Of a stretch of 64,000 bases of DNA, positions 3,465 through 44,429 are shown piece after piece. Position numbers and translations under genes: made by a program. The stretch is from Zygnema cylindricum (Eukaryota; Streptophyta; Zygnematophyceae; Zygnematales; Zygnemataceae), in the NCBI GenBank assembly GCA_037447655.1, contig JBBHKE010002674.1, forward strand, positions 62,001 through 126,000. The letters run 5' to 3'. How positions within the stretch are numbered: position 1 is the stretch's first letter; every line of letters starts with the position of its first letter. A model generated the notes under the pieces. That model was not told where the DNA came from. It saw only the letters and a list, made by a program, of their open reading frames with translations, and ran no database searches.

Positions 3465-3625
3465 TTTTTTTGACTTTCCTGTGTCCTGTTTCTCCTTTTT
3501 TGTGGTTTTCTCCTTTTTGTCGTTTGATCCTGTAGTCACTTTCTCTTTTCTCTCGGTTTCTTTTTTGTGGTTTTTTCTTATTTTTGGCGTTTTCTCTTTT
3601 TTTGTTGTTTTCTCTTCTTCCCGCA
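3465..3625. repeat. T-rich degenerate repeat, second block
   Basis: Same TTTTTGT(C/G)GTTTTCTC-type unit as 3026-3235. It runs into TTCTCTTCTTCCCGCAG at about 3610-3626, which has the form of a pyrimidine tract plus AG acceptor. Confidence 0.5.
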
Positions 3626-3652
3626 GGTTTCCCACCAGCGTCATCTGTTGTC

Positions 3653-19432: not shown

Positions 19433-20474
19433 TGTAGAAACTAATGGTTTTATTAGTATTTTCTAGGTCTAAATAGAAATATAGAAAGAAGCCGAGGCAG
19501 TCTACCTCTAACTTCTCTCTCCAAATCTCAAACTTGTCGCAGTCACTGAGAAATTGGAGAGGAAGCTAGAGCCATGGCTACCTTGGCTATCCTGAGGTTT
19601 ACGGGAATTTTATACTAGGGTTTATTTATTTATTTAAAAGGAATGTGCCGGCGGCAGGATTTGATCCTTGTACCTACCGGCCGGCAGACAGGAAATAGCC
19701 GGTAGCCTTAGCCGTTAGATCTAGCAGTAGTATTACGTGATATATAGTTTGATAATTATATAAATTAGAATACGTACGATAATTCATTTAACTGTTACGA
19801 TTTACGGGATGCATAGATCCGGTACGAATGACAGTACGGATTACGAATCAATACCGCGCATTTGTTTCGGAAGTGAAATAAATACCGCGCATGTATTTAT
19901 TACGGCCACGATTAAATCTGAATTTAATCGGACGGCCGGGATTAGCGCCGAGATCACGGAGGAAGATTTCGGCGGTTTGTGGCCATCGCCACATCGGATG
20001 ACGCGTGGCGAAATTCCGTTGGATCGTAGAATCTCCGGAGATTATGGCACCGAATCCGGATTTGACATGTGTCGACATTTAGGGCATGTCGTACAATGTC
20101 CGTACATAAAGTACACCAGCGGCTGTACTTTTACGTACGGAACTCAATTCTGATTGGTTCCGTACATCAGTCTATAGAGTCTGTGAGAGAGATAGGACTT
20201 AGAAAACTTAGAAGATAGGACCCCCTCTCCCAGAGAGCTTCTGTACAAAAGGTCAACTTTGACCCCCCATAACTTACTGCTCAGGGGAGCAAATTAAAAG
20301 ATTCTTTTTGCTATCGACTCAGGGGAGTCTTGTCTTCACAGGGAAGAAGTTGGTCAGCGTTTTTGTCTGCCAGGGTGGCAGTTATTTTTGCTTAAACACA
20401 AAGGGGTCAGGATTATCCTAGAGGCTTCTTGGAAGCTGTCCACTCTGAGGACTTATGGAGGTCTCAGAGTTACA
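19433..20474 (+). repeat. copia-A 5' LTR
   Basis: TGTAGAAACTAATGG... to ...CAGAGTTACA. Conserved parts shared with B, C and D LTRs: a GTCGTACAATGTCCGTAC block followed by paired GTAC-containing repeats (about 20088-20140), the palindrome GGTCAACTTTGACC (20251-20264), and two adjacent hairpins (20278-20291 and 20316-20329). An antisense tRNA-like GGATTTGATCC lies near 19660. Gag translation opens at 20455, inside the LTR. Confidence 0.97.
20278..20329 (+). promoter_or_regulatory. Twin hairpins in the LTR leader (putative RNA element)
   Basis: TGCTC-AGGG-GAGCA at 20278-20291 and GACTC-AGGG-GAGTC at 20316-20329, about 145 nt before the primer site. The second hairpin keeps its stem in copia-B, copia-D and both C LTRs while the loop varies (AGGG, GAGG, AAGG, AACG), which suggests selection on structure. 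A role in RNA dimerisation, packaging or translation is only a guess. Confidence 0.5.
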
Positions 20475-23400
20475 GGTTATGGGCCCACCCTCTAGGGTAC
20501 CAATCTTTAATGGAACTGGCTTCATATACTGGGAAAGTATGATGATAGGAGCTCTATGCGAAAAAAGGTTTTGGGGGATAGTGAGTGGACGATTGGGGCG
20601 TCCATCAAGTCTTGGAATTCCTCCAGGGTTTGGAGGAAGCAGATTCACCAGGAAAGAGGATTCACCTTCAACGGAGGAAACAAAGGAAGGAGAGGTGGTG
20701 GACAAAGGAAAGGAGAAGGAGGCGACCACACCAATAGCAACTGGTTTAGCATTCATGTCACCTATTCCGAGGAACGAGGAGAATGATACTGAAACCTGGG
20801 ACTTGAACAATATGGCGGCAAAGCACTTCATCCTACGCCATCTCACTCAAGGACTTGCATGTCCTCATTTGCAGGTAGAAAGGGCATCCGATCTTTGGAT
20901 GGCTCTTATAGAGATGTACCGAAGTGGTACGATTCAGCAACAACAGTTGGCTGATCAGAAAGTTAAGGAGTATGTATACAAAGGGGGAAATATGTTGGAT
21001 TTTTGCAATGAGCTTGCTACACTCTTCATGGAGCTACAGAGTGCGGGAAAAGATTTGAGTGAAAAAGAAAAGGTTAACTGTTTACTGATGAAGTTACCCG
21101 ATGAGTTCGTGAACATAGTTTACCGTGTGCAGGACTTGCCTGACTCAAGGTGGATATGGAACTCAGTGGTAGGAATGATTCTCGTTCAAGAGAATACAAT
21201 TGAGATCCGAAGGGGAGGAAAGAGTGGCCAAGCCTTGGCAACAGCGACTGATTGGAGGAACAGGGATTCCCGAAAACCGGTCGGAAACTATGGGGGTAGG
21301 GAGCAGAAAAAACCGGCCGATGAGTTCGAACCAAGGGCTCCCAAAGGACTATGTCATTTTTGTAAGAAACCGGGGCACTATATGGCAGAGTGCACTAAGC
21401 TAACCGAGCTTCGGTTAAAGGAGGGGCAGACCGGTGGTACCCCGAGAGGAAAGAAAAAGGCCCTTGTCACACAGGTAGTTGAGGCTGAATCCGAGGACGA
21501 GGACGATGAGCTCCTTTTGGATGAGGAGTTGGAGGCGAAAAATGAGGTCGAAATTCCACGGAGGCAGAAATGTGCTTACGGTGGATTGAAAGGTGAAGCA
21601 GGCTGGATTGTAGATTCAAGTGCCTCCATGCACATGTGTAAGGATAGACACCTGTTCACTAAGATAAGAAAGATTCCCACCGTAGAGATAGAGTACGGGG
21701 ATGGGAGGATAGTCACCACTACTCTTGTAGGATCGGTAGATCTAAAAGTGTTAGTAGAAGGAAAGACATCCATATTAACATTCTCCGATGTATTGTTTAT
21801 TCCGGAGCTGAACAAAAATCTTATCTCTACATCAGTATTAGATGATAAGGGTTTTTTTACTAGCACTAGGGAAGGAGTCTTTACTGCTAGTTTTGAGGAT
21901 GATGTCTATTTCATTGCTGAGAAAGGTAGCCATGGGATGTTTAGGCTGATCTTAAGTAATGAAAAGAAGAAACTTTATTATGCTGGTGTTCATGATATTA
22001 TGATGTGGCATAAGAGGCTTGGGCATGTGAATCTAGATAAGTTAAGAGAGATGAAAAAGATGGGAGTGGTGGAAGGGATTCAGTTCAGTGAGAGTGATGA
22101 TATAAGTGATTGTAGTGGATGTGCTCAAGGTAAAGCACACAGATTACCCTTTCCTAAGTCAGCCACCTATAAGGGAGAAAAAATTCTAGATCTAGTACAC
22201 ACAGATATTTGGGGACCGGCTAAAGTGCCCTCACCGGGGGGGAAGAGATTTATGATGACTATAACTGATGATTGGTCTCGGTATTCCCAGGTATATTTTT
22301 TGAAAAACAAGTCCGAAGCTGAGGATTGTTTTAGACAATATAAAGCATGGAGCGAAAAACTCCATGAAACTCCAATCAAGAGAGTAAGGAGTGACAATGG
22401 TGGAGAGTATACTTCTAACCAGTTTGAGGATTTTTTGAGGGAAGATGGGGTTCAACACCAAAAGACAGTTCCAGAAAATCCTGAACAGAATGGGGTAGCC
22501 GAGAGGTTAAATAGAACACTAAGTGATAGTGCTAGAAGTATGTTGTCAGATAAAAGGATAGGGAAAAGGTTTTGGGCAGAAGCAATGAACTGTGCTAATT
22601 ACCTCAAGAATAGAGTTCTTACTTCAGCTATAAAAGATCAAACACCTTATGAGAGATGGACAGGCCGGAAACCAGACATATCTCACTTAAAGGTTTTCGG
22701 CAGTCAAGTGTTCAGTCTAGATACTGATCGGTCAAATTGGAAGCTAGATCCTAAAGGAAAACCAGGATACTTATTAGGATATGATGAAGATGTTAAAGGA
22801 TATAGAGTTTATGATCTAAAAAGGGAAGATATAATCTTAGTAAAGCATCTAGTAGTTATGGATGAAGGAAAGTCTGTAGATCCCTTCAAATATACGAAGT
22901 CAGTAAAAATCAGATTTGAGTCAGAAAATTCCGATGACTTTGAGCTTCCTAACTATCCAGGTTTTAGAGAAGATGACATTCTTGCAGGTACAAATCAGAC
23001 CGAAAAGGACCCGGCTGTGGAAACTCCAGTGACAACTCTACTCGAAGCGGAAGACGTGGTGGAAATTGATTCGGAATCAAGGGATAGGGGAGAAGTCGAG
23101 TTTGTTCGAAAGAATCCACGAGAACCATCTATTCCGGCCTCAGATTTTGAGGGGGGGAGGAGAAGTAGCAAAAGACTGCAAGAAAAACAGGTTAATAACA
23201 AGGTAACTAAACTATCTCATCAAGATGAACCTCAAACTTATGGAGAGGCGATGACTTGTCCAGAAAGAAACCGGTGGAAGACAGCCATCAATGAGGAGAT
23301 GGCTTCAATCATGGCAGCCGATACTTGGGAGCTGGTGGACTGTCCACCTAACCGAAAACCAATCGGTTGTAAGTGGGTTTTCAAACTAAAACTGAACCCA

Positions 23401-24813
23401 GATAACACAATCGAGCGCTACAAGGCCAGATTAGTGGCAAAGGGATTTACACAAAAGGAAGGAATTGACTACGAGGAAACCTTTGCTCCGGTGGTCAGAT
23501 TTCCCTCCGTCCGCATACTTCTCAGTTTAGCGGCGGCGGAAGACATGGAAGTGCACCAGATGGACATAAAAACAGCCTTTTTGCATGGAGAATTGGAAGA
23601 GGAGATCTTCATGCGACAACCCGAAGGGTTTGTGGAAGAAGGAGAGGAGAGTAAGGTATGCCGGCTGATTAAATCTCTTTATGGTTTGAAACAGGCACCT
23701 CGACAATGGAATAAGAAGCTTGATGAGTTTCTTACCGGTCTGGGATATATTCGGATCAGCTCAGATCACTCAATCTATGTTTTCGAAGATGAGGAAGGTT
23801 TGATATTTATTGCAATTTATGTTGATGATTTGCTTGTATTAAGTAAATCAATGGAAAAAATTAACAAACTGAAAACCGATCTTAAGGGGAGATTTGAAAT
23901 GAAGGATATGGGAGAAGCAAGATATATTTTGGGAATTCAAGTAGAGAGAGACCGAAAAAGGAAAATTATAAGATTGACTCAAAAAGAAGCAATAGGGAAC
24001 ATGCTTGAAAAATTTCAAATGGATAAAGCTAATAGTTGTACAACTCCAATGGAGTTGAAGAAGGGAAGTGAGGGGAGTGAGGAAAAACGAGTCATAGTCT
24101 TAGACGAGGAATTATCTCATGATGAACAGAAGTTCATGCAGACTATTCCTTACAGGCAAGTAGTGGGAAGTCTAATCTATTTTATGAATTGTACCCGGCC
24201 GGATTTAGCAGCAGCTGTAGGAGTGCTGAGTAGAAGTCTAAATGCTCCCACTAAGAAGGATTGGGAGGCAGCTAAGAGAGTCCTTAGATACTTGGTAGGA
24301 ACTAGAGATCTATGGTTGCATTTGGGTGGGGAGAATACTGACATCACTACTTGGAGTGATGCCAGTTATGGTGATGCTCCGATGAGGAGATGTACTTCTG
24401 GATATGTATTATATGTGGGTGATGGGGCTTGCTGTTGGAGTAGCAAACAGCAAAAGGTTATTGCTCAGTCCACCATGGAGGCTGAGTATATGGCCTCTTG
24501 CTCTGCTGTAAAAGAATTGATGTGGGTCAAGTCTTTGCTTGGTGAGCTTGGTCACCTTAAGAGTGGTGTGCAGAAAATATTTTGTGATAATCAGGCAGCA
24601 ATCGCTATCTCTGCCAATCCTAAACACCATTTTAAAGCCAAACACATGGACATCAGACTCAGTTTTGTTAGAGAGAAAGTGGAAAACAAAATAATCAGTT
24701 TAGAGTACAGACCAGATAGTGAGATGGTAGCAGATATGATGACCAAACCTGTGCCTTCCCCTAAGCTAATTTTTTGCAGGGAGAAGTGTGGTCTGAAATT
24801 AAAGATTGACTAG
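20455..24813 (+). CDS. copia-A Gag-Pol polyprotein
   Basis: A 1452-residue single frame for the capsid-like Gag and the protease, integrase, RT and RNase H of a Ty1/copia element, which assembles cytoplasmic particles and integrates a cDNA copy. Domains by residue: cap 1-45, UBN2-like Gag about 110-250, CCHC knuckle C300/C303/H308/C313, protease D387, pre-integrase H519/H524/C553/C556, integrase D584/D647/E683 (35 residues between the last two, as in DD35E), RT from about 965 with YVDD at 1122-1125, RNase H with D1302, E1344 and D1388. The start at 20455 lies 20 nt inside the 5' LTR, and residues 7-12 are encoded by the primer site; Met9 (20479) is an alternative start. The protease motif is DSSA instead of DSGA (B and D keep DSGA), which may impair processing. 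There is no frameshift or leaky stop between Gag and Pol, so Gag excess must be set some other way. Confidence 0.97.
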   Translation: MEVSELQVMGPPSRVPIFNGTGFIYWESMMIGALCEKRFWGIVSGRLGRPSSLGIPPGFGGSRFTRKEDSPSTEETKEGEVVDKGKEKEATTPIATGLAFMSPIPRNEENDTETWDLNNMAAKHFILRHLTQGLACPHLQVERASDLWMALIEMYRSGTIQQQQLADQKVKEYVYKGGNMLDFCNELATLFMELQSAGKDLSEKEKVNCLLMKLPDEFVNIVYRVQDLPDSRWIWNSVVGMILVQENTIEIRRGGKSGQALATATDWRNRDSRKPVGNYGGREQKKPADEFEPRAPKGLCHFCKKPGHYMAECTKLTELRLKEGQTGGTPRGKKKALVTQVVEAESEDEDDELLLDEELEAKNEVEIPRRQKCAYGGLKGEAGWIVDSSASMHMCKDRHLFTKIRKIPTVEIEYGDGRIVTTTLVGSVDLKVLVEGKTSILTFSDVLFIPELNKNLISTSVLDDKGFFTSTREGVFTASFEDDVYFIAEKGSHGMFRLILSNEKKKLYYAGVHDIMMWHKRLGHVNLDKLREMKKMGVVEGIQFSESDDISDCSGCAQGKAHRLPFPKSATYKGEKILDLVHTDIWGPAKVPSPGGKRFMMTITDDWSRYSQVYFLKNKSEAEDCFRQYKAWSEKLHETPIKRVRSDNGGEYTSNQFEDFLREDGVQHQKTVPENPEQNGVAERLNRTLSDSARSMLSDKRIGKRFWAEAMNCANYLKNRVLTSAIKDQTPYERWTGRKPDISHLKVFGSQVFSLDTDRSNWKLDPKGKPGYLLGYDEDVKGYRVYDLKREDIILVKHLVVMDEGKSVDPFKYTKSVKIRFESENSDDFELPNYPGFREDDILAGTNQTEKDPAVETPVTTLLEAEDVVEIDSESRDRGEVEFVRKNPREPSIPASDFEGGRRSSKRLQEKQVNNKVTKLSHQDEPQTYGEAMTCPERNRWKTAINEEMASIMAADTWELVDCPPNRKPIGCKWVFKLKLNPDNTIERYKARLVAKGFTQKEGIDYEETFAPVVRFPSVRILLSLAAAEDMEVHQMDIKTAFLHGELEEEIFMRQPEGFVEEGEESKVCRLIKSLYGLKQAPRQWNKKLDEFLTGLGYIRISSDHSIYVFEDEEGLIFIAIYVDDLLVLSKSMEKINKLKTDLKGRFEMKDMGEARYILGIQVERDRKRKIIRLTQKEAIGNMLEKFQMDKANSCTTPMELKKGSEGSEEKRVIVLDEELSHDEQKFMQTIPYRQVVGSLIYFMNCTRPDLAAAVGVLSRSLNAPTKKDWEAAKRVLRYLVGTRDLWLHLGGENTDITTWSDASYGDAPMRRCTSGYVLYVGDGACCWSSKQQKVIAQSTMEAEYMASCSAVKELMWVKSLLGELGHLKSGVQKIFCDNQAAIAISANPKHHFKAKHMDIRLSFVREKVENKIISLEYRPDSEMVADMMTKPVPSPKLIFCREKCGLKLKID
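20475..20488 (+). other. Primer-binding site, anticodon-arm (half-tRNA) type
   Basis: GGTTATGGGCCCAC directly after the LTR end TTACA. Complementary to the anticodon stem-loop of initiator tRNA-Met, including the CAU anticodon. Known precedents for priming by an internal initiator-tRNA segment are Drosophila copia and yeast Ty5. Here the site lies inside the Gag frame. Confidence 0.92.
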
Positions 24814-24826
24814 AAAATAAGGGGAG
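24814..24826 (+). other. Polypurine tract of copia-A
   Basis: AAAATAAGGGGAG lies immediately between the Gag-Pol stop codon and the 3' LTR start TGTAG. Expected plus-strand primer. Copia-B and copia-D have near-identical tracts. Confidence 0.85.
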
Positions 24827-25868
24827 TGTAGAAACTAATGGTTTTATTAGTATTTTCTAGGTCTAAATAGAAATATAGAAAGAAGCCGAGGCAGTCTACC
24901 TCTAACTTCTCTCTCCAAATCTCAAACTTGTCGCAGTCACTGAGAAATTGGAGAGGAAGCTAGAGCCATGGCTACCTTGGCTATCCTGAGGTTTACGGGA
25001 ATTTTATACTAGGGTTTATTTATTTATTTAAAAGGAATGTGCCGGCGGCAGGATTTGATCCTTGTACCTACCGGCCGGCAGACAGGAAATAGCCGGTAGC
25101 CTTAGCCGTTAGATCTAGCAGTAGTATTACGTGATATATAGTTTGATAATTATATAAATTAGAATACGTACGATAATTCATTTAACTGTTACGATTTACG
25201 GGATGCATAGATCCGGTACGAATGACAGTACGGATTACGAATCAATACCGCGCATTTGTTTCGGAAGTGAAATAAATACCGCGCATGTATTTATTACGGC
25301 CACGATTAAATCTGAATTTAATCGGACGGCCGGGATTAGCGCCGAGATCACGGAGGAAGATTTCGGCGGTTTGTGGCCATCGCCACATCGGATGACGCGT
25401 GGCGAAATTCCGTTGGATCGTAGAATCTCCGGAGATTATGGCACCGAATCCGGATTTGACATGTGTCGACATTTAGGGCATGTCGTACAATGTCCGTACA
25501 TAAAGTACACCGGCAGCTGTACTTTTACGTACGGAACTCAATTCTGATTGGTTCCGTACATCAGTAGATAGAGTCTGTGAGAGAGATAGGACTTAGAAAA
25601 ATTAGAAGATAGGACCCCCTCTCCCAGAGAGCTTCTGTACAAAAGGTCAACTTTGACCCCCCATAACTTACTGCTCAGGGGAGCAAATTAAAAGATTCTT
25701 TTTGCTATCGACTCAGGGGAGTCTTGTCTTCACAGGGGTGAAGTTGGTCAGCGTTTTTGTGTGCCAGGGTGGCAGTTATTTTTGCTTAAACACAAAGGGG
25801 TCAGGATTATCCTAGAGGCTTCTTGGAAGCTGTCCACTCTGAGGACTTATGGAGGTCTCAGAGTTACA
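24827..25868 (+). repeat. copia-A 3' LTR
   Basis: 1042 bp, nearly identical to the 5' LTR. Differences I noticed include GGGAAGAAG vs GGGGTGAAG, CAGTCTATAG vs CAGTAGATAG and ACCAGCGGC vs ACCGGCAGC. The Gag ATG at 25849 is present but runs into unrelated flanking sequence. Confidence 0.97.
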
Positions 25869-26815: not shown

Positions 26816-28281
26816 TTGCCTGGCGGGTCCGTGCCTATTTATTTTAGGCGGCTTCGAGTGTGACGTATCACATTCTACCCCGTATTGAACCGGCATTCAC
26901 GTGCCAATCCAACAAATTTTACGTTCAATTGAGTGTAGGATTAGAATTTTTTTGTTGTTTTTCTGGTAGAGTTGCCCAAAAATAAAGCTTATCTGTTAGT
27001 TGAATGGAGGTGTTTCACATGCCTTATTTTTAATTATTATTATTATTATTGATTTTATCTTCCTTTATCATCTCAGTCATTTTTTTGCAATTTTACTCTT
27101 TGATATTTTCTGCCCAATTTACTTTCTCACAAAAGTAATGTCGTAGATAATTCTATTGAAGTTGTGAAAAACTTCAGATGATTAAGAAAAATATTTTGTT
27201 TCTAATCGTTCCAGAAACTATTTTTTGTAATACTCTAATCGTTGATTATAAAATGTTTCGCTAAGATTCTTACAGGTAATCATAAGTCATTCTCGATATC
27301 TACAGAAAAAAGTAATAAATGCTTGGTACATTTTTCCAATGTGGTAGGAAGGAATGGTTACTCAAACGATAACCCTAAATTCCTAAAAACCGTAAACCCT
27401 AAAAACGTTTTTAGTGTAATATCCATCATCAGAACTCCACATTAAGTTCCAATACAATTGACAAAGCCAGTAGAAACATATCATGCTGATTGAAACCTGC
27501 GAGAAAAATATGTACGGAAGAATGAAAAGACGAAAAAAAAAAGTAAAGCTGGATTGTTTTTGTTTGTGGAACGGCAGCCACGCCTATGAAATCATTGAAT
27601 TGTAAATAGAAGAGGGTATAGTCGAGGTTTAACTTTTTTTAGAGCTTGTTATGTGCTAATGTGGCAAATGTTTGATGCTGTTTTAAATTAGGGTTGGGAC
27701 GACGCTGATATGCTCAGCGCCAATAGGAAGCGTTGAAACTGTAGCGCTGGAGCATAGATGTCTCATTCGTTAGGATTTTGATAGCGCATGAGACATCTAT
27801 GCGCTGGAGTCATACCAATTCATATTTGAGGTCAAGGCGGATGCCGAATGAAATTTTCTGTCTGTACGTTCGCCGTTCGACGGCTGTACGATACTGTACT
27901 GTACTGTTCATTGGGGGTTTGTTCGATACTTCGATGCCGGCCTTTTGGAGATCTCGACAATTTTTTACTGTTTTTATTGCCTATGACAGCTCACCAGGGC
28001 GTGTTTTTTCTGCCTGTGACAGCACATCCACAAGCAGCAGAAGTTTTGGTTTTGGCCGTACCTTTGGCAAAAGAAGTACAAGGGATCGTCAAAAATTTTT
28101 GAAAAAAAAAATCGACGGTTGTTTTCACGAGTGTTCTTACTTCTTCGGATGCTAACCACCACGTGTCAGCTCACAGAGCCAAGAGAGAAGCTAAATCGAG
28201 GGAACTTCGAAAATTTTCTCTTCAAAGATTTGTGATCTCGCACGAGTGCTTACAACTGACGCATAGAAACAAAAAGGATTA
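26816..28281. other. No gene recognised; small hairpin and ATT microsatellite
   Basis: AT-rich intergenic-like sequence with an (ATT)n tract near 27034-27050 and a 14-bp perfect inverted repeat CATAGATGTCTCAT at 27753-27766 / 27788-27801 around a GCGCTGGA word. Short open frames (27778-28155, 27848-28102) overlap in different frames and show no domain. Confidence 0.5.
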
Positions 28282-30057: not shown

Positions 30058-30301
30058 TGCTAGAAATCGGCGATATTCAACTTATCGCAAGGGCGCCAAA
30101 GTGTTAACTTTGGAAAATGGCCAAGCTAGGAATTGAACGCGGGACCTGTGCAAACCGTACACTAGCTCTACCAACTGAGCTACCCGACCGATGTGCGCGC
30201 AAGCGCCTTATACCGAATTTATACGGTGATGAGCGGCGCACTGGCAAACCAACTTACAGCGCGATGCATACGTGTGGAGTCCAAAGTGGACAGTTCTCCC
30301 A
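30058..30301 (-). repeat. TRIM 3' LTR
   Basis: 244 bp on the minus strand, TGGGAGAACTGTCC... to ...GATTTCTAGCA. It matches the 5' LTR with roughly 15-20 differences, concentrated partly in the tRNA-like T-arm (CGCGTTCAATTCC instead of CGGGTTCGATCCC). Confidence 0.9.
30118..30189 (-). tRNA. tRNA-like sequence in TRIM 3' LTR (degenerate copy)
   Basis: Same 72-nt sequence as 30424-30495 with changes in the acceptor (GGTCGGG) and T-arm. It keeps an A-box TAGCTCAGTTGG and a B-box-like GTTCAATTC. Likely a decayed twin rather than an independent gene. Confidence 0.55.
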
Positions 30302-30349
30302 TCGCCCCCTCACGATGTACTCCATCTCGTGTGGCTTGCCATCGCCCCC

Positions 30350-30363
30350 TGGCTCTGATACCA
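30350..30363 (-). other. TRIM primer-binding site
   Basis: TGGTATCAGAGCCA on the minus strand, starting at the base after the LTR terminus TATAACA. An exact match to the complement of the initiator tRNA-Met 3' end. Confidence 0.93.
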
Positions 30364-30609
30364 TGTTATAAATCGGCAATATTCAACTTATCGCAAGGGC
30401 GTCAAAGTGTTAACTTTGGAAAATGGCCAAGCCGGGGATCGAACCCGGGACCTGTGCAAACCGTACACTAGCTCTACCAACTGAGCTACCCGGCCGATGT
30501 GCACGCAAGCGCCTAATACCGAATTTATACGGCGATGAACGGCGCACTGGCAAACCAGCTTACAGCGCGATACACACGTGTGGGGTCCAAAGTGGACAGT
30601 TCTCCAACA
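30364..30609 (-). repeat. TRIM 5' LTR
   Basis: 246 bp, TGTTGGAGAACTGTCC... to ...CCGATTTATAACA on the minus strand, containing a complete tRNA-like cloverleaf in the middle (30424-30495). Confidence 0.92.
30424..30495 (-). tRNA. tRNA-like gene inside TRIM 5' LTR
   Basis: Read on the minus strand: acceptor GGCCGGG pairs with CTTGGCC in all seven positions (two G-U) with A73 after it; TA; D-stem GCTC/GAGC with loop AGTTGGTA; T-stem CCGGG/CCCGG with loop TTCGATC. A-box TAGCTCAGTTGG and B-box GGTTCGATCCC fit the Pol III type-2 promoter, and TTTT follows the 3' end within three bases. The anticodon arm is imperfect: a 4-bp stem (GTGT/GCAC with one G-U), loop ACGGTTT, lacking U33, so an anticodon assignment (nominally GGT) is unsafe. 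I infer a tRNA-derived Pol III promoter rather than a working decoding tRNA. It is in the same direction as the element. Confidence 0.7.
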
Positions 30610-31074
30610 ATAACATATCACATCGACAAAATATAAATTTTTTAGCCGAGGCTTTTCCAAAACAATCTCTCACTCTTACCAATCTTACTCACTCAGATTA
30701 CTAACTCTCATTTATCACTTATTCTCACTCACGCTCACACTGGATACATTTTTTATGGATATCTTTCCTAACTCTACTAACTCACTAAACACTCACTACA
30801 ATGATAAAGAACAAATACAACTGAAATCAATACATTGCAAAATGTTCCTAAATGTAACGACCAGATGCACGCTGAGTGCGCCTGCCATAGCCTGCATCAA
30901 GCTACCTCTACTCTAACAAATATGCTCTCTGTAAACTGAAACAAGATGCGGCAAGATCGTAGAAGGATCGGCCGTACAAAGGTATTGCCGCTTCGTCGCA
31001 CTCATAGAATATTTCCGTGGACGAAAAGATCGCGTCACGCGTCGCGGACATGAAATATTACGCTGACCCCAAAT

Positions 31075-33506: not shown

Positions 33507-35747
33507 TACCTTTGCGCAAAATCTGACTATATATGCCTAAAATTGGTGACAGTTCGAGAGATAAAAGACAAAAACAAAAGCAAGATGTAACAGTATAAAG
33601 TCCACCCTAAACTGGTGACAGGTCGAAAGAGAAAAGACAAAACAAAATCAGGAGGCAACGACGAAATTTATAGAATTAATGACGTCGATAGTGTTGCAAA
33701 TAATCAACGAGTCGATAATGTCACAAAAAATCAGACGTCTATTGCGGAAGAAATGACGTCTACACTGTCAAAAAGCTACGTAGCGTTTGCAAATGTCACC
33801 ACTTTAAGTGACGAGTTTAGTTCTAAATATTGGAACACCAAAAAAAGCTTACGAAGAGTCTTTCCTACAAGACAAATTTTCCAGGCAAAGTACGCTTGCC
33901 GATATGCCGATGGAGCCATGTCAAGAGAGTTCAAGGCGCGGAATCGACCCATTTATTTCATTCTTATTTTTTCTTCTTGTCTTTGTCGATCTGTTTTTGT
34001 TGATAAATGGTCTCTTGTGTGGCCGTTCTCGCCTTCTTCCTTCTCCCCAACTCCATCCTATCTCAGGCAAAACCTCTCACTAACCCGAATATTCAACAAA
34101 GATCTCTCCGAATCATTTTGTCTACCTCAAACCTAACATTTGAAAAAGATTGTCTTGAAGTCAAGACTCTCTCTTGGTCCCTCTCCTTATTTCCCATACC
34201 AACCTATATCTACTTCACACATTTAAGACAGTTGCTACTTAGAATTGCAAAATATTTGCTTTGCTTAAGCCCCAAGCCTGATTTCATCTTATTAGGAAAC
34301 ATTTCCTCCTTTGTCGGACTAGTTACTGATCTCCTTGTATCTTTGCGTGAATAATCCCACGTAGACTTTGTCTTTTCCCTCGGAATCCTTAACCACCACG
34401 GCCTTCCTTTTTTTCACCCTGTCTTGGCTAAAGCTCTCCTAACATCTTAAGATTTATCCATGGTGGTCAATGTTGATGTGGCACTAGTCAACGAGACAAC
34501 TCTAAGTCACATTATTTGTGAGTTTGTCAAGATATTTATTGCAAAAGGTTTTTTAATGACGACCCTAGTCTATCTTGTCCAACGTCACAAACTTAAATGA
34601 CAGTTGTAAAAAAATGCGACTTTTCCCTCCCACTTGGCGCCTTTGGACTCTTACATACAGACGGTGGGGTCGAAGCTTGACTTTAGAATAAATGGAAGTA
34701 AACTTTACGAAACATATATGCCTCCTTTTTATGTTGACGTTCTTGAGCTCGACACGTGGTAGGCTCATGTCGCTCTATTGGAAACCGATAGAGAAATTGT
34801 GGAACGAGGGACAACGAGCCATTTGGACGCCACCTCAATCAAAAAATCGTAGCTTTCATGGGTTTCAAGAAGAGTTATATCTCAAAGAAGTTCATAAATC
34901 ATTCAAAAAAAACCATCACCGAAAGATGACGGAATTTGTTGAGTTCATTCGCGAAGCTTCTCGATATGAATCGAACAATTTGAGAGGATTGTACCATTTT
35001 ATAACTGAGAGGTAGACAAATCTTCAATAGTTGCTTTTGAGGAAAAACAAAGAGTGAAATTCCAAAGAGCTCAAGCAACTCAAGGTAATTATCGCGAATG
35101 ATTATGGAGGACAACTTGCAGTATATAATTGGTGCTTGGTAATGGGGCGCGACGCCGTGGGAGTGACATAGAAAGTCCAATGATACTCTTTGTGTGCTTG
35201 CGGTCTCCCAATGGTTTTCCTAAAATTCTCGGCACTGGGCTACGTCTCACGAGCACCACTACAGTAGCTTTTTTTTTTTTTTACTGGCAAAATTAGTACC
35301 CAGTATGGAAACATGGAAACGAGGTGCCACGCTGGTCATTTGTAATATCATCAGCAAACAAATCCAAAGGAAGTCAAAGAGCCGTTTGAACAGGTTCCCG
35401 AAGGTAGTAGGGAATATAGGCATATAGACACGGACGAGGGTAGCCCTAGTGCTGACACCCAAAAACGCCAAGACGTCCAACGATTGTAAGTCATGCGGAG
35501 AAGGATGTCGATGAAAGAGAATTTGAGTAATGTGTCCGTGGTCAAGAGGCAAAATTCGCGCTTTGGTCTTTAAGTATGCCATCAAACATCTTTTGACGCC
35601 AGCTTATGCAGCGTACAACTTGCCACACCCCAGGGTAGGGCACTCTATAAGGCCCCTTGCTTTGAACTGAAGCTAATGTGAGCTACGAAGCGAAGGGGGT
35701 CGTGCATGAATGGGCGGAAGTTAGAGAAATTGTTGTTTGGTTGGAAG
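33507..35747. other. Unassigned region with weak open frames
   Basis: An imperfect ~60-bp tandem pair (GGTGACAG.TCGA.AGA.AAAAGACAAAA) lies at 33547 and 33612. A 173-codon frame at 33615-34136 begins Lys/Asp/Asn-rich and ends hydrophobic, and a 107-codon frame at 34692-35015 begins with a hydrophobic segment. Neither shows a family motif or a convincing gene context, so I do not call them as genes. Confidence 0.4.
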
Positions 35748-38053
35748 TGTTGTTTTTGAAGATTTAGTTTCGTGCGTATGTGAAATTTGATGCGCACGCG
35801 ACGTTTCGTGCGTATATATTTTACATGATGTACTGTGGAGTTTTGAACAGTTTGCGGTTCGGGGGAATTAAATGTACGAGTAAAATTAATGGAGTAATTG
35901 AGTGGCGCGAAATGTGAGAGGAAATGGACGGCGGATCGCGAAGCGATCCGACGTGAGATAATCGACGAAGATAAAATGGTACGTCGCACGTAAAGTTCAT
36001 AATGCGACACGTGGGATATATAAAAAGGACGCCGCCGGTACATAGAATCTTTTTGGGGACAGGTGTACTTATTTTTGGCAGGCGCATTTATGACGAGGAA
36101 CAAAAGTAACGGTACGGACTAATTTGGATAGTTTGACGAGGTTTCGACAAGTGGTTTTTTTTTATGACCACGCGGCGCGACATCAAGGGTGCCGATTAAG
36201 AGCGACGGACGGCGGATATAGGCCGCCGAGATTTTTTATGTAGTGGTGACGCGAAATCGCGTCAATCACACGAATCATATTTTGGACGTTCCAGATTGTT
36301 TGACAAGTGATTCGTGGTACACGTGGAAGGCGGATGGCGTCCGCCGATATTTCCAAGGGATCGTATTGTTTGATGACGTGTTAATTAGGTGGACCGTACA
36401 TATACGATGTCGGTTCACTACATGGATTTAACTACGAGTGACTAAGCGAGTTGTCACTTATGACGCGTATTTTGCGGACGCGTCGGTATAAATATTTGAT
36501 ACAACATTATTTTTAGTGTTGTGAATCGGTAAGGATTTTCCGATAACCGATATGGGCCATTTTTCGGGGACCCGATAATCGATATATTGGTACAATATAT
36601 CGCTATCGGTCTTATCGCCGATAAGTAGCCGATAATATCGGCTACTTATCGGCGATAATGCCGATAACGATAACTATCGGCGATAACTGTACGAACCGTA
36701 CAGATAAATGTACGGCCTGTACACTCATATGTACGTCTTATTCCCCCGACAGTAGCCGGCATGATATATGTACGGCTTTAGTACGCCTCCAGTTAAAGCG
36801 ATGTACTTTCCACATCCGACGCCGTGGCTTTGTCCCTTTCTTTTTTGAGATCCACTACAAACCTGCCACGTGTCAATCCGTCGACTTTTTTGGCCAAAGC
36901 CGCCAAAAAAGCCATTCTGAGATGTCGGCGCTCACGCTGACCGTCCGCTCTTATTTTATCATTGAATGTCGTCCGTTAGATTCTAGCCGCGCGCATAATG
37001 TTATTCTGCATCCGTTGTACTTTGAGTCCGCCGTCTTTTTACCGTTTCATGATAATCAGTTTATCGGTACAATTCCGTACATTCCCGTCAAATTTATGTA
37101 CAGTTAACCGCCCAAAAGTACTACAAAGTGCAACGTATTTTTTCGTCAAATTCCGTACATTTCCCGTAAAAAGCCGTACATTTCACGTAAATTTCCGTTC
37201 AGTTTACCGGACAGAAAGCATTCCGGACAGAAAGTACAGAAAGTACAAATATATCGGGACCGCTGACCGTTCGATAACGATAACTATCGGTATCGGTGTT
37301 ATCGCGATAAGTTTTTTACCGATACACAACACTAATTATTTTGTCTTATGTGTATTATTAATTTAGTATTGATTATGATATTCTTTATTTAAGTGATCAA
37401 TTAGGGTTTTCGATAGTTTAATTTGTGTGTGTACGATGTTGTACTTGTAGACAAGTGTACGCTTACGATTGTTTTGACTTTCAGGTGTACGCTTAAGATT
37501 AATTTATTCTTAGTGGTGGTCTATTATGGTTAAATAGGACTTTATGACAGTTACGTAATGTATGTTGGTTATTTTGACACCTAGTGATTCATTGACAGCT
37601 CACAAGTGTATATATAGGAATGAGCTTTGTTAGGAATTAATCATCAATGCTGGTTAGTAAAGTGGGGACCGAAGATGTAAACTTTTAGGGTTGCCGATTA
37701 GGTCATGCATTTGAGTAATATGTTTATTGATATACTTTTGTTTATCTAATGTTTATGTGAGATTGCACTCTTTTTGTTATTATTTATTTATGTTATTTTA
37801 TGTTTGTTTGATATGCATTATTTATGCATTTGTCCTAGGGTTTGCTTATGTTGATTATTCCATCAAACCTTAGATGTTGTCATAGGGTTTATTTATGTTG
37901 ATTATTCCATGAAACCCTAAATGTTGTTTGTTGCGTCTGTGTACGCATATGGAGGATGCATTTCATATGATTGTTCGTCGACCTATTTTTGCTTAGCTTC
38001 TTGCATGATAGTTTGGGTCGCTTCTGCGGTCTATTTTAGACCAAAGAACAACA
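35748..38053 (+). repeat. LTR 1 of the tandem non-autonomous element
   Basis: 2306 bp with a hAT-like element (36514-37334) inside. It carries several private bases relative to LTRs 2 and 3 (GACAGGTGTAC, TTCCAGATTG, CTACATGG, GTTGTCACTTA). A telobox-like region with paired TAGGGTTT and AAACCCTA words around TATGTTGATTATTCCAT lies at about 37838-37920. Confidence 0.92.
36514..37334. mobile_element. hAT-like element inside LTR 1
   Basis: 821 bp with ends TAGTGTTGTG(A)ATCGGTAA and its complement TTACCGATACACAACACTA, flanked by ATTATTTT at 36506-36513 and 37335-37342. TAGTG fits the hAT YARNG terminus. The solo LTR at 45810-47164 lacks the element at this exact position, giving an empty site. 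It contains a 22-bp perfect hairpin (36612-36633 / 36637-36658, loop AAT) and multiple CGATAACGATAACTATCGG words near both ends. No transposase; the 149-codon frame at 36658-37107 has no recognisable domain. Confidence 0.92.
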
Positions 38054-38945
38054 GGTTATGGGCCCACACCCCATCTATCATATGTTAGGTTAAGTCGATG
38101 TAGGTTTTTGTCACACGCATTGTAGCGGGTTAATATTGTCCTTGCTGGTTGTATTGCAGTAATGGTGTCTGTGTACCCATGAGATCGGCCTTATCATAGT
38201 GTTGGTATGTGCCGAGTTTAATCTTGCATCGCCCCAAGGGTTAACTTAGTGACAGTGCCGAAATGTCTACCCTCAATGAAAATGATTAATTATGAGAAAT
38301 GATATTTTATTTTTGGAAAATACATATTCGTTTGATGGAGAGATGTGGAAGATGGAGATTCGACGTTTGGGGGAGAGAGATCCGGAAGGTGGAGTTGTGA
38401 CATGTGGTGGAGAGATCCAAATTTTGTGGATCGATGATTGTTGAAAATTGGAGTTGTAATGTAGATTTTGAGTTGTTGGAAATTTTTGCGAAATGTGACA
38501 TTATTAGAATTTTTGGAAAATACTATTTTGTATATGAATTTTTATGGGAAATTTTGGGATTTGATAGTTTATGAAAAGAAAAAAAAATATTATTGAAATC
38601 TAGATTTGTTATAATGAGGTAGGAATTATTTGAGCGAGGATATATTATTAGTGTGACCTTTTGGCTTTAATTTTTAGTTGATTTGTGATAGAATTTTGGG
38701 AATGTAAATCCGGATTTAGATATTGGAAGGAATTATTTTTGTTGTAATCGGAAGATGAAATCATATATATATATGTATTATGAAATCTGGATGGTATGGG
38801 GAGTTAGCGGAAGCGATGGTGGAACAAGTGAGAAAATTCCAGCGGAGGCATTTGGCGGATTCAGATGGAGGAGACAGCAGGAGGTGACAGTGTGACAGCT
38901 GATGACGTGGCATAATGGATGCACAAAACTAAATTTTCGGGGGAG
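38054..38945 (+). other. Interior 1 of the tandem element (PBS to PPT, non-coding)
   Basis: Begins GGTTATGGGCCCACACCCCA (primer site 38054-38067) and ends AAATTTTCGGGGGAG. G-rich, T-rich on the plus strand, with only short frames. Differs from interior 2 at a handful of positions. Confidence 0.88.
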
Positions 38946-41230
38946 TGTTGTTTTTGAAGATTTAGTTTCGTGCGTATGTGAAATTTGATGCGCACGCGAC
39001 GTTTCGTGCGTATATATTTTACATGATGTACTGTGGAGTTTTGAACAGTTTGCGGTTCGGGGGAATTAAATGTACGAGTAAAATTAATGGAGTAATTGAG
39101 TGGCGCGAAATGTGAGAGGAAATGGACGGCGGATCGCGAAGCGATCCGACGTGAGATAATCGACGAAGATAAAATGGTACGTCGCACGTAAAGTTCATAA
39201 TGCGACACGTGGGATATATAAAAAGGACGCCGCCGGTACATAGAATCTTTTTGGGGACAGTTGTACTTATTTTTGGCAGGCGCATTTATGACGAGGAACA
39301 AAAGTAACGGTACGGACTAATTTGGATAGTTTGACGAGGTTTCGACAAGTGGTTTTTTTTTATGACCACGCGGCGCGACATCAAGGGTGCCGATTAAGAG
39401 CGACGGACGGCGGATATAGGCCGCCGAGATTTTTTATGTAGTGGTGACGCGAAATCGCGTCAATCACACGAATCATATTTTGGACGTTCCGGATTGTTTG
39501 ACAAGTGATTCGTGGTACACGTGGAAGGCGGATGGCGTCCGCCGATATTTCCAAGGGATCGTATTGTTTGATGACGTGTTAATTAGGTGGACCGTACATA
39601 TACGATGTCGGTTCACTACGTGGATTTATCTACGAGTGACTAAGCGAGTTGTCGCTTATGACGCGTATTTTGCGGACGCGTCGGTATAAATATTTGATAC
39701 AACATTATTTTTAGTGTTGTGTATTGGTAAGGATTTTCCGATAACCGATATGGGCCATTTTTCGGGGACCCGATAATCGATATATTGGTACAATATATCG
39801 CTATCGGTCTTATCGCCGATAAGTAGCCGATAATATCGGCTACTTATCGGCGATAATGCCGATAACGATAACTATCGGCGATAAATGTACGAACCGTACA
39901 GATAAATGTACGGCCTGTACACTCATATGTACGTCTTATTCCCCCGACAGTAGCCGGCATGATATATGTACGGCTTTAGTACGGCTCCAGTTAAAGCGAT
40001 GTACCTTCCACATCCGACGCCGTGGCTTTGTCCCTTTTTTTTTTGAGATCCACTACAAACCTGCCACGTGTCAATCCGTCGACTTTTTTGGCCAAAGCCG
40101 CCAAAAAAGCCATTCTGAGATGTCGGCGCTCACGCTGACCGTCCGCTCTTATTTTATCATTGAATGTCGTCCGTTAGATTCTAGCCGCGCGCATACTGTT
40201 ATTATGCATCCGTTGTACTTTGAGTCCGCCGTCTTTTTACCGTTTCATGATAATCAGTTTATCGGTACAATTCCGTACATTCCCGTCAAATTTATGTACA
40301 GTTAACCGCCCAAAAGTACTACAAAGTGCAACGTATTTTTTCGTCAAATTCCGTACATTTCACGTAAATTTCCGTTCAGTTTACTGGACAGAAAGCATTC
40401 CGGACAGAAAGTACAGAAAGTACAAATATATCGGGACCGCTGACCGTTCGATAACGATAACTATCGGTATCGGTGTTATCGCGATAAGTTTTTTACCGAT
40501 ACACAACACTAATTATTTTGTCTTATGTGTATTATTAATTTAGTATTGATTATGACATTCTTTATTTAAGTGATCAATTAGGGTTTTCGATAGTTTAATT
40601 TGTGTGTGTACGATGTTGTACTTGTAGACAAGTGTACGCTTACGATTGTTTTGACTTTCAGGTGTACGCTTAAGATTAATTTATTCTTAGTGGTGGTCTA
40701 TTATGGTTAAATAGGACTTTATGACAGTTACGTAATGTATGTTGGTTATTTTGACACCTAGTGATTCATTGACAGCTCACAAGTGTATATATAGGAATGA
40801 GCTTTGTTAGGAATTAATCATCAATGCTGGTTAGTAAAGTGGGGACCGAAGATGTAAACTTTTAGGGTTGCCGATTAGGTCATGCATTTGAGTAATATGT
40901 TTATTGATATACTTTTGTTTATCTAATGTTTATGTGAGATTGCACTCTTTTTGTTATTATTTATTTATGTTATTTTATGTTTGTTTGATATGCATTATTT
41001 ATGCATTTGTCCTAGGGTTTGCTTATGTTGATTATTCCATCAAACCTTAGATGTTGTCATAGGGTTTATTTATGTTGATTATTCCATGAAACCCTAAATG
41101 TTGTTTGTTGCGTCTGTGTACGCATATGGAGGATGCATTTCATATGATTGTTCGTCGACCTATTTTTGCTTAGCTTCTTGCATGATAGTTTGGGTCGCTT
41201 CTGCGGTCTATTTTAGACCAAAGAACAACA
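38946..41230 (+). repeat. LTR 2 of the tandem non-autonomous element
   Basis: 2285 bp. Its hAT-like insert (39712-40511, 800 bp, same ATTATTTT flanks at 39704-39711 and 40512-40519) lacks 21 bp between two CCGTACATTT words, a likely slippage deletion. It shares several single-base variants with LTR 3 against LTR 1. Confidence 0.92.
39712..40511. mobile_element. hAT-like element inside LTR 2 (21-bp deletion)
   Basis: Same element as 36514-37334 with a 21-bp internal deletion. Its presence at the identical site in all three LTRs shows that insertion preceded the duplications. Confidence 0.9.
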
Positions 41231-42123
41231 GGTTATGGGCCCACACCCCATCTATCATATGTTAGGTTAAGTCGATGTAGGTTTTTGTCACACGCATTGT
41301 AGCGGGTTAATATTGTCCTTGCTGGTTGTATTGCAGTAATGGTGTCTGTGTACCCATGAGATCGGCCTTATCATAGTGTTGGTATGTGCCGAGTTTAATC
41401 TTGCATCGCCCCAAGGGTTAACTTAGTGACAGTGCCGAAATGTCTACCCTCAATGAAAATGATTAATTATGAGAAATGATATTTTATTTTTGGAAAATAC
41501 ATATTCGTTTGATGGAGAGATGTGGAAGGTGGAGATTCGACGTTTGGGGGAAAGAGATCCGGAAGGTGGAGTTGTGACATGTGGTGGAGAGATCCAAATT
41601 TTGTGGATCGATGATTGTTGAAAATTGGAGTTGTAATGTAGATTTTGAGTTGTTGGAAATTTTTGCGAAATGTGACATTATTAGAATTTTTTGGAAAATA
41701 CTATTTTGTATAAGAATTTTTATTGGAAATTTTGGGATTTGATAGTTTATGAAAAGAAAAAAATTATTATTGAAGTCTAGATTTGTTATAATGAGGTAGG
41801 AATTATTTGAGCGAGGATATGTTATTAGTGTGACCTTTTGGCTTTAATTTTTAGTTGATTTGTGATAGAATTTTGGGAATGTAAATCCGGATTTAGATAT
41901 TGGAAGGAATTATTTTTGTTGTAATCGGAAGATGAAATCATATATATATTATGTATTATGAAATCTGGATGGTATGGGGAGTTAGCGGAAGCGATGGTGG
42001 AACAAGTGAGAAAATTCCAGCGGAGGCATTTGGCGGATTCAGATGGAGGAGACAGCAGGAGGTGACAGTGTGACAGCTGATGACGTGGCATAATGGATGC
42101 ACAAAACTAAATTTTCGGGGGAG
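41231..42123 (+). other. Interior 2 of the tandem element (PBS to PPT, non-coding)
   Basis: 893 bp, near-identical to interior 1, with primer site at 41231-41244 and purine tract just before 42124. Confidence 0.88.
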
Positions 42124-44429
42124 TGTTGTTTTTGAAGATTTAGTTTCGTGCGTATGTGAAATTTGATGCGCACGCGACGTTTCGTGCGTATATATTTTAC
42201 ATGATGTACTGTGGAGTTTTGAACAGTTTGCGGTTCGGGGGAATTAAATGTACGAGTAAAATTAATGGAGTAATTGAGTGGCGCGAAATGTGAGAGGAAA
42301 TGGACGGCGGATCGCGAAGCGATCCGACGTGAGATAATCGACGAAGATAAAATGGTACGTCGCACGTAAAGTTCATAATGCGACACGTGGGATATATAAA
42401 AAGGACGCCGCCGGTACATAGAATCTTTTTGGGGACAGTTGTACTTATTTTTGGCAGGCGCATTTATGACGAGGAACAAAAGTAACGGTACGGACTAATT
42501 TGGATAGTTTGACGAGGTTTCGACAAGTGGTTTTTTTTTATGACCACGCGGCGCGACATCAAGGGTGCCGATTAAGAGCGACGGACGGCGGATATAGGCC
42601 GCCGAGATTTTTTATGTAGTGGTGACGCGAAATCGCGTCAATCACACGAATCATATTTTGGACGTTCCGGATTGTTTGACAAGTGATTCGTGGTACACGT
42701 GGAAGGCGGATGGCGTCCGCCGATATTTCCAAGGGATCGTATTGTTTGATGACGTGTTAATTAGGTGGACCGTACATATACGATGTCGGTTCACTACGTG
42801 GATTTATCTACGAGTGACTAAGCGAGTTGTCGCTTATGACGCGTATTTTGCGGACGCGTCGGTATAAATATTTGATACAACATTATTTTTAGTGTTGTGT
42901 ATGGGTAAGGATTTTCCGATAACCGATATGGGCCATTTTTCGGGGACCCGATAATCGATATATTGGTACAATATATCGCTATCGGTCTTATCGCCGATAA
43001 GTAGCCGATAATATCGGCTACTTATCGGCGATATTGCCGATAACGATAACTATCGGCGATAACTGTACGAACCGTACAGATAAATGTACGGCCTGTACAC
43101 TCATATGTACGTCTTATTCCCCCGACAGTAGCCGGCATGATATATGTACGGCTTTAGTACGGCTCCAGTTAAAGCGATGTACTTTCCACATCCGACGCCG
43201 TGGCTTTGTCCCTTTCTTTTTTGAGATCCACTACAAACCTGCCACGTGTCAATCCGTCGACTTTTTTGGCCAAAGCCGCCAAAAAAGCCATTCTGAGATG
43301 TCGGCGCTCACGCTGACCGTCCGCTCTTATTTTATCATTGAATGTCGTCCGTTAGATTCTAGCCGCGCGCATAATGTTATTCTGCATCCGTTGTACTTTG
43401 AGTCCGCCGTCTTTTTACCGTTTCATGATAATCAGTTTATCGGTACAATTCCGTACATTCCCGTCAAATTTATGTACAGTTAACCGCCCAAAAGTACTAC
43501 AAAGTGCAACGTATTTTTTCGTCAAATTCCGTACATTTCCCGTAAAAAGCCGTACATTTCACGTAAATTTCCGTTCAGTTTACCGGACAGAAAGCATTCC
43601 GGACAGAAAGTACAGAAAGTACAAATATATCGGGACCGCTGACCGTTCGATAACGATAACTATCGGTATCGGTGTTATCGCGATAAGTTTTTTACCGATA
43701 CACAACACTAATTATTTTGTCTTATGTGTATTATTAATTTAGTATTGATTATGACATTCTTTATTTAAGTGATCAATTAGGGTTTTCGATAGTTTAATTT
43801 GTGTGTGTACGATGTTGTACTTGTAGACAAGTGTACGCTTACGATTGTTTTGACTTTCAGGTGTACGCTTAAGATTAATTTATTCTTAGTGGTGGTCTAT
43901 TATGGTTAAATAGGACTTTATGACAGTTACGTAATGTATGTTGGTTATTTTGACACCTAGTGATTCATTGACAGCTCACAAGTGTATATATAGGAATGAG
44001 CTTTGTTAGGAATTAATCATCAATGCTGGTTAGTAAAGTGGGGACCGAAGATGTAAACTTTTAGGGTTGCCGATTAGGTCATGCATTTGAGTAATATGTT
44101 TATTGATATACTTTTGTTTATCTAATGTTTATGTGAGATTGCACTCTTTTTGTTATTATTTATTTATGTTATTTTATGTTTGTTTGATATGCATTATTTA
44201 TGCATTTGTCCTAGGGTTTGCTTATGTTGATTATTCCATCAAACCTTAGATGTTGTCATAGGGTTTATTTATGTTGATTATTCCATGAAACCCTAAATGT
44301 TGTTTGTTGCGTCTGTGTACGCATATGGAGGATGCATTTCATATGATTGTTCGTCGACCTATTTTTGCTTAGCTTCTTGCATGATAGTTTGGGGTGCTTC
44401 TGCGGTCTATTTTAGACCAAAGAACAACA
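42124..44429 (+). repeat. LTR 3 of the tandem non-autonomous element
   Basis: 2306 bp, ending AGAACAACA, followed by AGAAGGATG of unrelated flank. It contains the full 821-bp hAT-like insert at 42890-43710. Confidence 0.92.
42890..43710. mobile_element. hAT-like element inside LTR 3
   Basis: Third copy of the 821-bp element, flanked by ATTATTTT at 42882-42889 and 43711-43718. Confidence 0.9.

Follow-up and report, generated by a model that had tools for sequence, protein, structure and literature searches.

TRIMs whose LTRs carry a tRNA-like sequence have been named Helenus and placed with Cassandra and Ajax in the group TRIMp3; in the part of that account available, Pol III-driven TRIMs are proposed from sequence conservation and function is left open (Kojima, 2024; PMC10886601). 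The only plant Helenus in the same part comes from Selaginella moellendorffii, with an LTR of 120 bp and an interior of 85 bp (PMC10886601). The name itself occurs, within the accessible portions of the literature searched, only in that paper and in a 2026 meeting report, and the word tRNA is absent from the available main text of a survey of plant TRIMs (Gao, 2016; PMC4717578). An earlier reading of the present locus, made from its letters without database searches (the sequence-only reading), had treated such elements as a new class; the class was in fact described in 2024, as Helenus (PMC10886601). The same reading had likened the element to a Cassandra with a tRNA in place of the 5S rRNA sequence, and this likeness held up, with a tRNA match in the LTRs and no 5S match. 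Identity with Cassandra itself was rejected, as no 5S match reached the gathering score in the window (the whole 64-kb stretch of DNA analysed) and the only match was to tRNA.

The element described here is a TRIM of the Helenus type and represents a new family, as judged by setting it beside described families by structure and lengths rather than by Repbase sequence. It is a well-supported new family of the kind described in 2024, and what is added is evidence of selection on its tRNA part. Its features, in positions of the window, are as follows.

30058..30609, minus strand: complete Helenus-type TRIM of 552 bp, recognised by its LTR pair, TSD, PBS and PPT and by its family in the host genome
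30053..30057, no strand: TSD ATAAC, left
30610..30614, no strand: TSD ATAAC, right
30364..30609, minus strand: 5' LTR, 246 bp, TG...CA
30058..30302, minus strand: 3' LTR, 245 bp in the family register, with a decayed TGTT start
30348..30363, minus strand: primer binding site (PBS) TGGTATCAGAGCCAGG, complementary at 16/16 positions to the 3' end of host initiator tRNA-Met plus CCA
30303..30311, minus strand: polypurine tract (PPT) GAGGGGGCG, from sequence
30424..30495, minus strand: tRNA-like of the 5' LTR, with intact acceptor, D and T arms, anticodon GGT and C33 (RF00005, ARAGORN, fold)
30118..30189, minus strand: tRNA-like of the 3' LTR, with a decayed T-arm (RF00005 24.2 bits; 6/72 differences)
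30477..30488, minus strand: A box TAGCTCAGTTGG, from sequence
30435..30445, minus strand: B box GGTTCGATCCC, from sequence
30420..30423, minus strand: TTTT 3' of the 5'-LTR tRNA-like, a candidate minimal Pol III terminator
30114..30117, minus strand: TTTT 3' of the 3'-LTR tRNA-like
30523..30529, minus strand: TATAAAT, at -34 from the 5'-LTR tRNA-like
30217..30223, minus strand: TATAAAT, upstream of the 3'-LTR tRNA-like

The characters by which Helenus is recognised are present: the box patterns TRGCY...YGG and GGTTC in the 5' LTR, a non-coding body with tRNA-derived sequence in both LTRs (the 3' copy below the gathering score), a PBS for a host tRNA beside the 5' LTR, a PPT before the 3' LTR, and a 5-bp TSD. 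No stop-to-stop open reading frame of at least 150 aa was found in the 552 bp. The 5'-LTR tRNA-like matches RF00005 at 44.8 bits (E 2.8e-6; Infernal/Rfam) and is the sole Rfam match at or above the gathering score in the 64-kb window, and so lies far beyond chance; ARAGORN calls it tRNA-Thr GGT, and its predicted fold has an energy of -30.5 kcal/mol. The two tRNA-likes are not independent observations, because both LTRs are copied from one template. The LTR pair shows 19 mismatches over 244 aligned columns, a K2P divergence of 0.083 (0.092 when measured in the family alignment), which at the plant rates we take to apply presumably corresponds to about 3–6 My.

Much of what the sequence-only reading had said of this anatomy stands: the perfect TSD, the 246-bp LTR, the PBS and the purine tract, the A and B boxes of the 5' LTR (TAGCT...TGG and GGTTC), the TTTT directly after each tRNA-like (30423–30420 and 30114–30117), and the lack of U33, where the 5'-LTR tRNA-like has C33. 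Its 244-bp 3' LTR, however, is better taken as 245 bp from 30302, because other copies have a 61-bp interior; the interior of this element thus measures 61–62 bp, depending on the register. Full pairing in each LTR likewise holds for the 5' LTR (30424–30495, above the RF00005 cut-off) but not for the 3' LTR, where 30118–30189 scores 24.2 bits, under the cut-off of 29. Of the 72 positions of the latter sequence, 6 differ from its partner; five of these lie in the half with the T-arm and B box, and the T-stem no longer forms in the predicted fold.

The element belongs to a multicopy family, hereafter family A. In the 352.8-Mb assembly searched (2689 contigs), the whole element gave at least 52 matches (40 of 309 candidates scored), a U3-only query of 110 bp without the tRNA at least 42 (40 of 295 scored) and the interior at least 42 (40 of 93 scored), all of these counts being lower bounds biased toward close relatives of the query. 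Among the matches listed, all 26 new U3-only loci carry the tRNA-like, complete in 24 and truncated in two (L046, L063). Pattern scans of viral contigs gave 0 matches each. One hundred full LTRs were aligned, 77 from 40 loci and 23 from the U3 set, with four partial matches in L046, L061 and L063 excluded. The 32 loci compared yield 34 LTR pairs, inner pairs of arrays among them; the TSD agrees at 5/5 positions in 15 and at 4/5 or better in 24, against 1.7% and 23.5% for the same search in random sequence. One copy (L009) has identical LTRs and a 5/5 TSD, and two others (L006, L010) have an LTR K2P of 0.004. The interior is conserved across the 37 gap-free of 39 copies, and tandem arrays of the form LTR-interior-LTR-interior-LTR occur at five loci (L020, L021, L034, L035, L039), some clipped by the retrieved stretch.

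Promoter-like signals recur across the family. The A box matches TRGCNNAGTNGG without mismatch in 78 of 100 LTRs and the B box matches GGTTCRANNCC without mismatch in 75, and a T run of at least four begins within 18 nt after the tRNA-like in 98/100, compared with 23 of 2140 control windows. Two clades, A and B, were assigned from flank columns only. TATAAA stands upstream of the tRNA-like in 58/63 clade-A LTRs and in none of 37 clade-B LTRs; in clade B the T4 lies at position 0 in 14/37 and at +11, often behind TTTAA, in 18/37. Clade B includes young copies, with LTR K2P of 0.008–0.027 (L019, L024, L026, L017, L029) and TSDs of 5/5 in L017, L026 and L029, 4/5 in L024 and 3/5 in L019. ARAGORN finds a tRNA in 67/100 LTRs (38 Thr-GGT, 11 Ala-GGC, 10 Asp-GTC, 8 others), with identities scattered within the family over Thr, Ala, Asp, Ser, Pro and Asn. 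Most family-A anticodon loops have C at position 33; subfamily G4 reads as tRNA-Asp GTC with U33, scoring up to 54.3 bits. At three loci (L002, L014, L020) the two LTRs bear anticodon loops of different subfamilies, which suggests recombination or gene conversion.

An exact-pattern search of the assembly recovered two initiator tRNA-Met genes, 269 bp apart, both ending in ...CCTGGCTCTGATA; with CCA added, the PBS is complementary at 16/16 positions. In sequence these genes resemble the initiator tRNA-Met of green plants. Across family A the PBS varies at positions 8, 9 and 13, and the variant TGGTATCGGAGC, with a possible G-U wobble at position 8, is commoner than the exact initiator match among the variants listed. 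An autonomous partner sharing this PBS was not found within the window, whose Copia elements use a half-tRNA-Met PBS. Three Copia LTRs in the window (20475, 53181 and 11680 minus) directly precede GGTTATGGGCCCACC, which is complementary at 15/15 positions to the anticodon part of the host initiator tRNA-Met; a half-tRNA-Met PBS is also described, in the part of the source available, for Osser, Bryco and part of the Gymco-II Copias (PMC6317226). One Copia in the window (19433–25868) looks recent, with 1042-bp repeats 99.2% identical, a TSD TAGTA and an open frame of 1454 residues; the closest protein in a homology search shares 64% identity. The region at 35743–44429 holds three tandem repeats of about 2.3 kb with spacers of about 0.9 kb, each spacer beginning with a near-perfect half-tRNA-Met PBS (38054 and 41231; 14/15), and looks like a LARD-like element of the form LTR-interior-LTR-interior-LTR. 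Elsewhere in the window, the open frame at 3536–4264 gave no Pfam match, and 3650–4264 no homologue at E 0.001 among 299 candidates.

Two kinds of change were compared to look for selection on the tRNA-like. A difference between the paired LTRs of a copy dates from after its insertion, and changes common to groups of copies were taken as having arisen mostly in source copies. Within the 34 pairs, the tRNA-like differs at 150/2443 positions (6.1%), U3 at 242/3763 (6.4%) and U5 at 103/1822 (5.7%); the tRNA-like thus differs as often as its flanks, and copies decay evenly. Changes on branches with at least five copies (deep) were then compared with terminal changes. On a tree from all columns, the deep:terminal ratio is 64:390 in the flanks and 8:183 in the tRNA body (p 0.00017), that is, 0.386 and 0.123 deep changes per column, a 3-fold difference; body columns outside the A and B boxes stand at 5:124 (p 0.001), the boxes at 3:59 (p 0.043; B box taken as tRNA-like positions 51–61), and the seven columns of the anticodon loop at 10:10 (p 0.00024). 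With a flank-only tree the contrast narrows to 12:202 in the body against 50:394 in the flanks (p 0.022; 0.185 and 0.301 per column, 1.6-fold), with p 0.08 for the non-box body, 0.13 for the boxes and 0.000025 for the loop. When the tree is built instead from the tRNA columns together with half of those of the flanks, the ratios are 3:178 in the body and 46:421 in the flanks (p 0.00018).

Simpler counts point in part the same way. With the sharing threshold set at 8, 10, 15 or 20 copies, column counts show the contrast too (p 0.010–0.029), and at a threshold of five the body-flank contrast is not significant (p 0.58). Subfamily groups G1–G4 were defined by the anticodon loop (83/100 LTRs; 17 unassigned), so that their loop counts are circular, a circularity from which the sharing-threshold and tree-based loop counts are free. 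In four between-clade comparisons of subfamilies, 21–24 of 166 flank columns and 1 of 65 body columns differ; the two within-clade comparisons give no contrast (1/166 and 2/65; 2/166 and 0/65). The tRNA window together with its loop has a low value in a raw sliding-window scan, though not a unique one (10/167 as low; 47/167 with the flank-only tree). Covariation within family A was not detected (94.5% of cells paired, against 94.4% shuffled; alignment A1 excludes, on account of their length, three of 75 distinct tRNA-likes), and complementarity between the tRNA-like and the interior is weak, with 26/300 shuffles equally good. Because shared changes are scarcer in the body than in the flanks and gather in the anticodon loop, the pattern suggests that source copies are under selection for the promoter and/or the fold of the tRNA-like. 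A published comparison of post-insertion decay with source-lineage change was not found in the literature searched, including the available part of PMC10886601. The sequence-only reading had asked whether the cloverleaf is conserved between copies while flanks diverge, and had named copies lacking the tRNA-like, or random decay of the A and B boxes, as evidence against its interpretation. The family exists (at least 52 element matches), neither outcome appeared in the copies analysed (the 26 new U3-only loci, from 40/295 candidates scored, all carry the tRNA-like), and the conservation is seen only in part: the tRNA body changes less on source lineages, but decay after insertion is even and the loop drifts.

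Matches to the interior alone revealed mixed arrays of different TRIM types. At one locus (L089) a type-A LTR is followed by a type-X interior and LTR and then by an interior and LTR of type A; L092 and L099 have the same arrangement but begin with a hybrid LTR, which leads into interior X, LTR X, interior A and LTR A. In a fourth array (L080) the successive LTRs are of types Y, X, Y and A, and some of them are incomplete. The type-X LTR measures 222 bp, with an interior of 66 bp and a different tRNA-like (GAGCTGG...CCGGCTCA); as a query it gave at least 68 matches (40 of 868 candidates scored). Infernal, run on 15 of the 20 type-X loci listed, returned 22 tRNA matches at or above the gathering score, up to 56.3 bits, of which L104 1897–1969 and possibly others sit in neighbouring LTRs of another type. 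All 22 full family-X LTRs have TATAAA at -30/-31. No T4 lies within 20 nt of the tRNA-like in any of the 22, and in 20 of them none follows anywhere. ARAGORN labels 12 of these LTRs Lys-CTT and nine CTA (Pyl in the program's label), and position 33 is G in the aligned type-X tRNA-likes.

Global alignment of A with X gives 61% in U3 (3/200 shuffles as high), 65% in U5 (79/200) and 68% in the tRNA-like (0/200), and A with Y gives 67% (18/200), 74% (81/200) and 67% (0/200), respectively; the flanks of family X thus appear barely, or not, alignable to those of family A. X and Y share 59% in U3, 60% in U5 and 86% in the tRNA-like, and their flanks are weakly related, since 0/200 shuffles reach the U3 or U5 score. 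In a set of 12 tRNA-likes chosen from types A, X and Y, pairing holds in 97.2% of cells. Double changes occur at 10 of the 21 pairs, among them all five of the anticodon stem; between types they fill 50 cells, a count reached by 0/500 shuffles. Two cloverleaves have been kept, but co-evolution is unproven, because A and X may derive from different cellular tRNAs. The hybrid LTR switches from A to X inside the tRNA-like: it matches A through tRNA position 55, and its last 86 bp match LTR X at 95%. Such a structure could arise by strand transfer if the two types share R, by ectopic recombination, or as a join made in assembly.

Two further observations concern these types. The window holds, at 26818–26911, a 94-bp U3 fragment of a type-Y TRIM, 95% identical to L080 and cut by other LTR-like sequence starting near 26815; the alternative that it is an ancestral, tRNA-free LTR was rejected, as it is a U3 fragment cut by another LTR. 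Adjoining the chimeric array of L089, the plus-strand region 2005–2592 encodes a bacterial conjugation TrbI-like domain (PF03743, E 7e-25), a possible transfer from a bacterium, and the plus-strand frame at 681–1256, across the array, gave no Pfam match; the two are perhaps one gene interrupted by the TRIM array.

We consider it likely that the element is a TRIMp3 TRIM mobilised in trans by Copia-type machinery, with a tRNA-derived Pol III promoter in its LTR. Pol III would initiate at the 5'-LTR tRNA-like, near 30495 on the minus strand, read past the TTTT of the 5' LTR and across the PBS and interior, and stop at the TTTT behind the 3'-LTR tRNA-like, yielding a transcript of about 380 nt; the tRNA-like itself would form its terminal repeat R, of about 76 nt. 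Host initiator tRNA-Met would prime at the PBS, strong-stop DNA would jump through R, the purine tract would prime the second strand, and a Copia-type integrase would create the 5-bp TSD. We infer the use of Pol III, the start and stop points and the Copia partner from sequence. The comparison of lineages speaks for the tRNA-like as the signal that transcription needs, and for a termination more flexible than a simple model assumes: clade B does without TATAAA and family X without T4, but every lineage examined has the tRNA-like. Family X lacks a nearby T4 yet has TATAAA; the terminator half of the model is therefore not general. Read-through of the first T4 is plausible by analogy, since in a test with a mammalian SINE TTTT ended 65% of transcripts (PMC8466645, in the part available) and Cassandra arrays yield multi-element RNAs, presumably through LTR read-through (PMC7215508, likewise in part). 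Against the proposed cycle, a model tRNA gene terminates at TTTT in about 95% of cases, as cited in the same part of PMC8466645, which would leave little read-through. The constraint test also counts against it, being weaker with the flank-only tree and reaching p 0.58 at threshold five, as do the missing covariation within the family and the absence, within the window, of an autonomous partner sharing its PBS.

It is possible, though we think it rather unlikely, that the main reason for keeping the tRNA-like is its role as a folded RNA module, in packaging, strand transfer through R, or processing by RNase P/Z, and not its role as a promoter. The non-box body is at least as constrained as the boxes (5:124 and 3:59, against 64:390 in the flanks), and the double changes between types include the five anticodon-stem pairs, which lie outside the promoter. 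However, the non-box signal falls to p 0.08 with the flank-only tree, covariation is missing within family A, and the double changes may predate capture if A and X stem from different cellular tRNAs. A narrower version, which we hold with somewhat greater doubt, is that the tRNA-like is R and is kept as a folded cloverleaf needed by the retrotransposition cycle beyond the A and B boxes, with the loop free and the stems held. If so, with an R common to different TRIM families, strong-stop DNA could pass from one co-packaged RNA to another, which would explain the chimeric LTRs joined inside the tRNA-like (L092, L099).

The Pol III reading must also be weighed against that of an ordinary Pol II TRIM, which we regard as unlikely, in which transcription is driven by the U3 TATA and the tRNA-like rides along as a passenger, being a captured tRNA or SINE head. 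Pol II starts at a set spacing from its TATA, and from the TATAAA near -34 in clade A (58/63) or at -30/-31 in family X (22/22) this spacing would put the start near the 5' end of the tRNA-like. The clade-A TATAAAT is therefore placed where Pol II could use it, a point against the proposed cycle, and all 22 family-X LTRs lack a T4 within 20 nt. But all 37 clade-B LTRs lack TATAAA, yet that clade has young copies; a passenger should drift like its flanks on source lineages, where the tRNA body changes less. Nor does a TATA discriminate, as 22–32% of flowering-plant tRNA genes have an upstream TATA motif (PMC11700998, in the part available).

That the element spreads working tRNA genes is very improbable, and this reading was rejected: ARAGORN recovers a tRNA in 67/100 LTRs and subfamily G4 retains U33, but on source lineages the anticodon loop changes faster than any other part (its seven columns show 10 deep and 10 terminal changes), identities scatter in family A and are Lys-CTT or CTA in family X, and position 33 is C in most family-A loops and G in the aligned type-X sequences. 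One chance capture in a single dead copy has next to no probability and was likewise rejected, for the decayed 3'-LTR tRNA-like of the window is set against a multicopy family with the tRNA-like in all 26 new U3-only loci, and its presence in both LTRs implies at least one cycle after capture.

The host genome, then, has at least three tRNA-bearing TRIM sequence types together with young copies. These provide a natural test bed for the choice of polymerase, with one lineage that has T4 without TATA and another that has TATA without T4, and the neutral-decay control provides evidence for selection on the tRNA part in source copies.

Set beside known systems, the element resembles tRNA-headed SINEs (SINE2) in being short and non-autonomous, with a tRNA-derived Pol III promoter, but differs in having LTRs, a tRNA PBS, a PPT and a 5-bp TSD; to our knowledge, SINEs lack LTRs, a tRNA PBS and a PPT. 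A SINE inserted into one LTR was rejected, as the tRNA-like is found in both LTRs and throughout the family. Size, LTR-interior-LTR structure, tandem arrays and a non-coding body are shared with canonical plant TRIMs as available in Gao (2016; PMC4717578). With Helenus, as far as the accessible part of PMC10886601 describes it, the element shares the tRNA-like in both LTRs, PBS, PPT, non-coding body and conserved A and B boxes, the 5-bp TSD of fungal and plant families, doubtful tRNA function, several families per genome, and tandem arrays, there described for a zebrafish family. Such families can inflate tRNA gene counts, as in rust fungi (PMC10886601, same part). The chimeric inter-family arrays seen here were not found in that part of PMC10886601, and the lengths depart from those of the Selaginella Helenus, with an LTR of 246 bp and an interior of 61–62 bp here against 120 and 85 bp there. 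With Cassandra, finally, the element shares a Pol III-type gene in each LTR, the PBS TGGTATCAGAGC and tandem arrays, but in the Cassandra LTR that gene is 5S rRNA, and here it is a tRNA (PMC7215508, in the part available).
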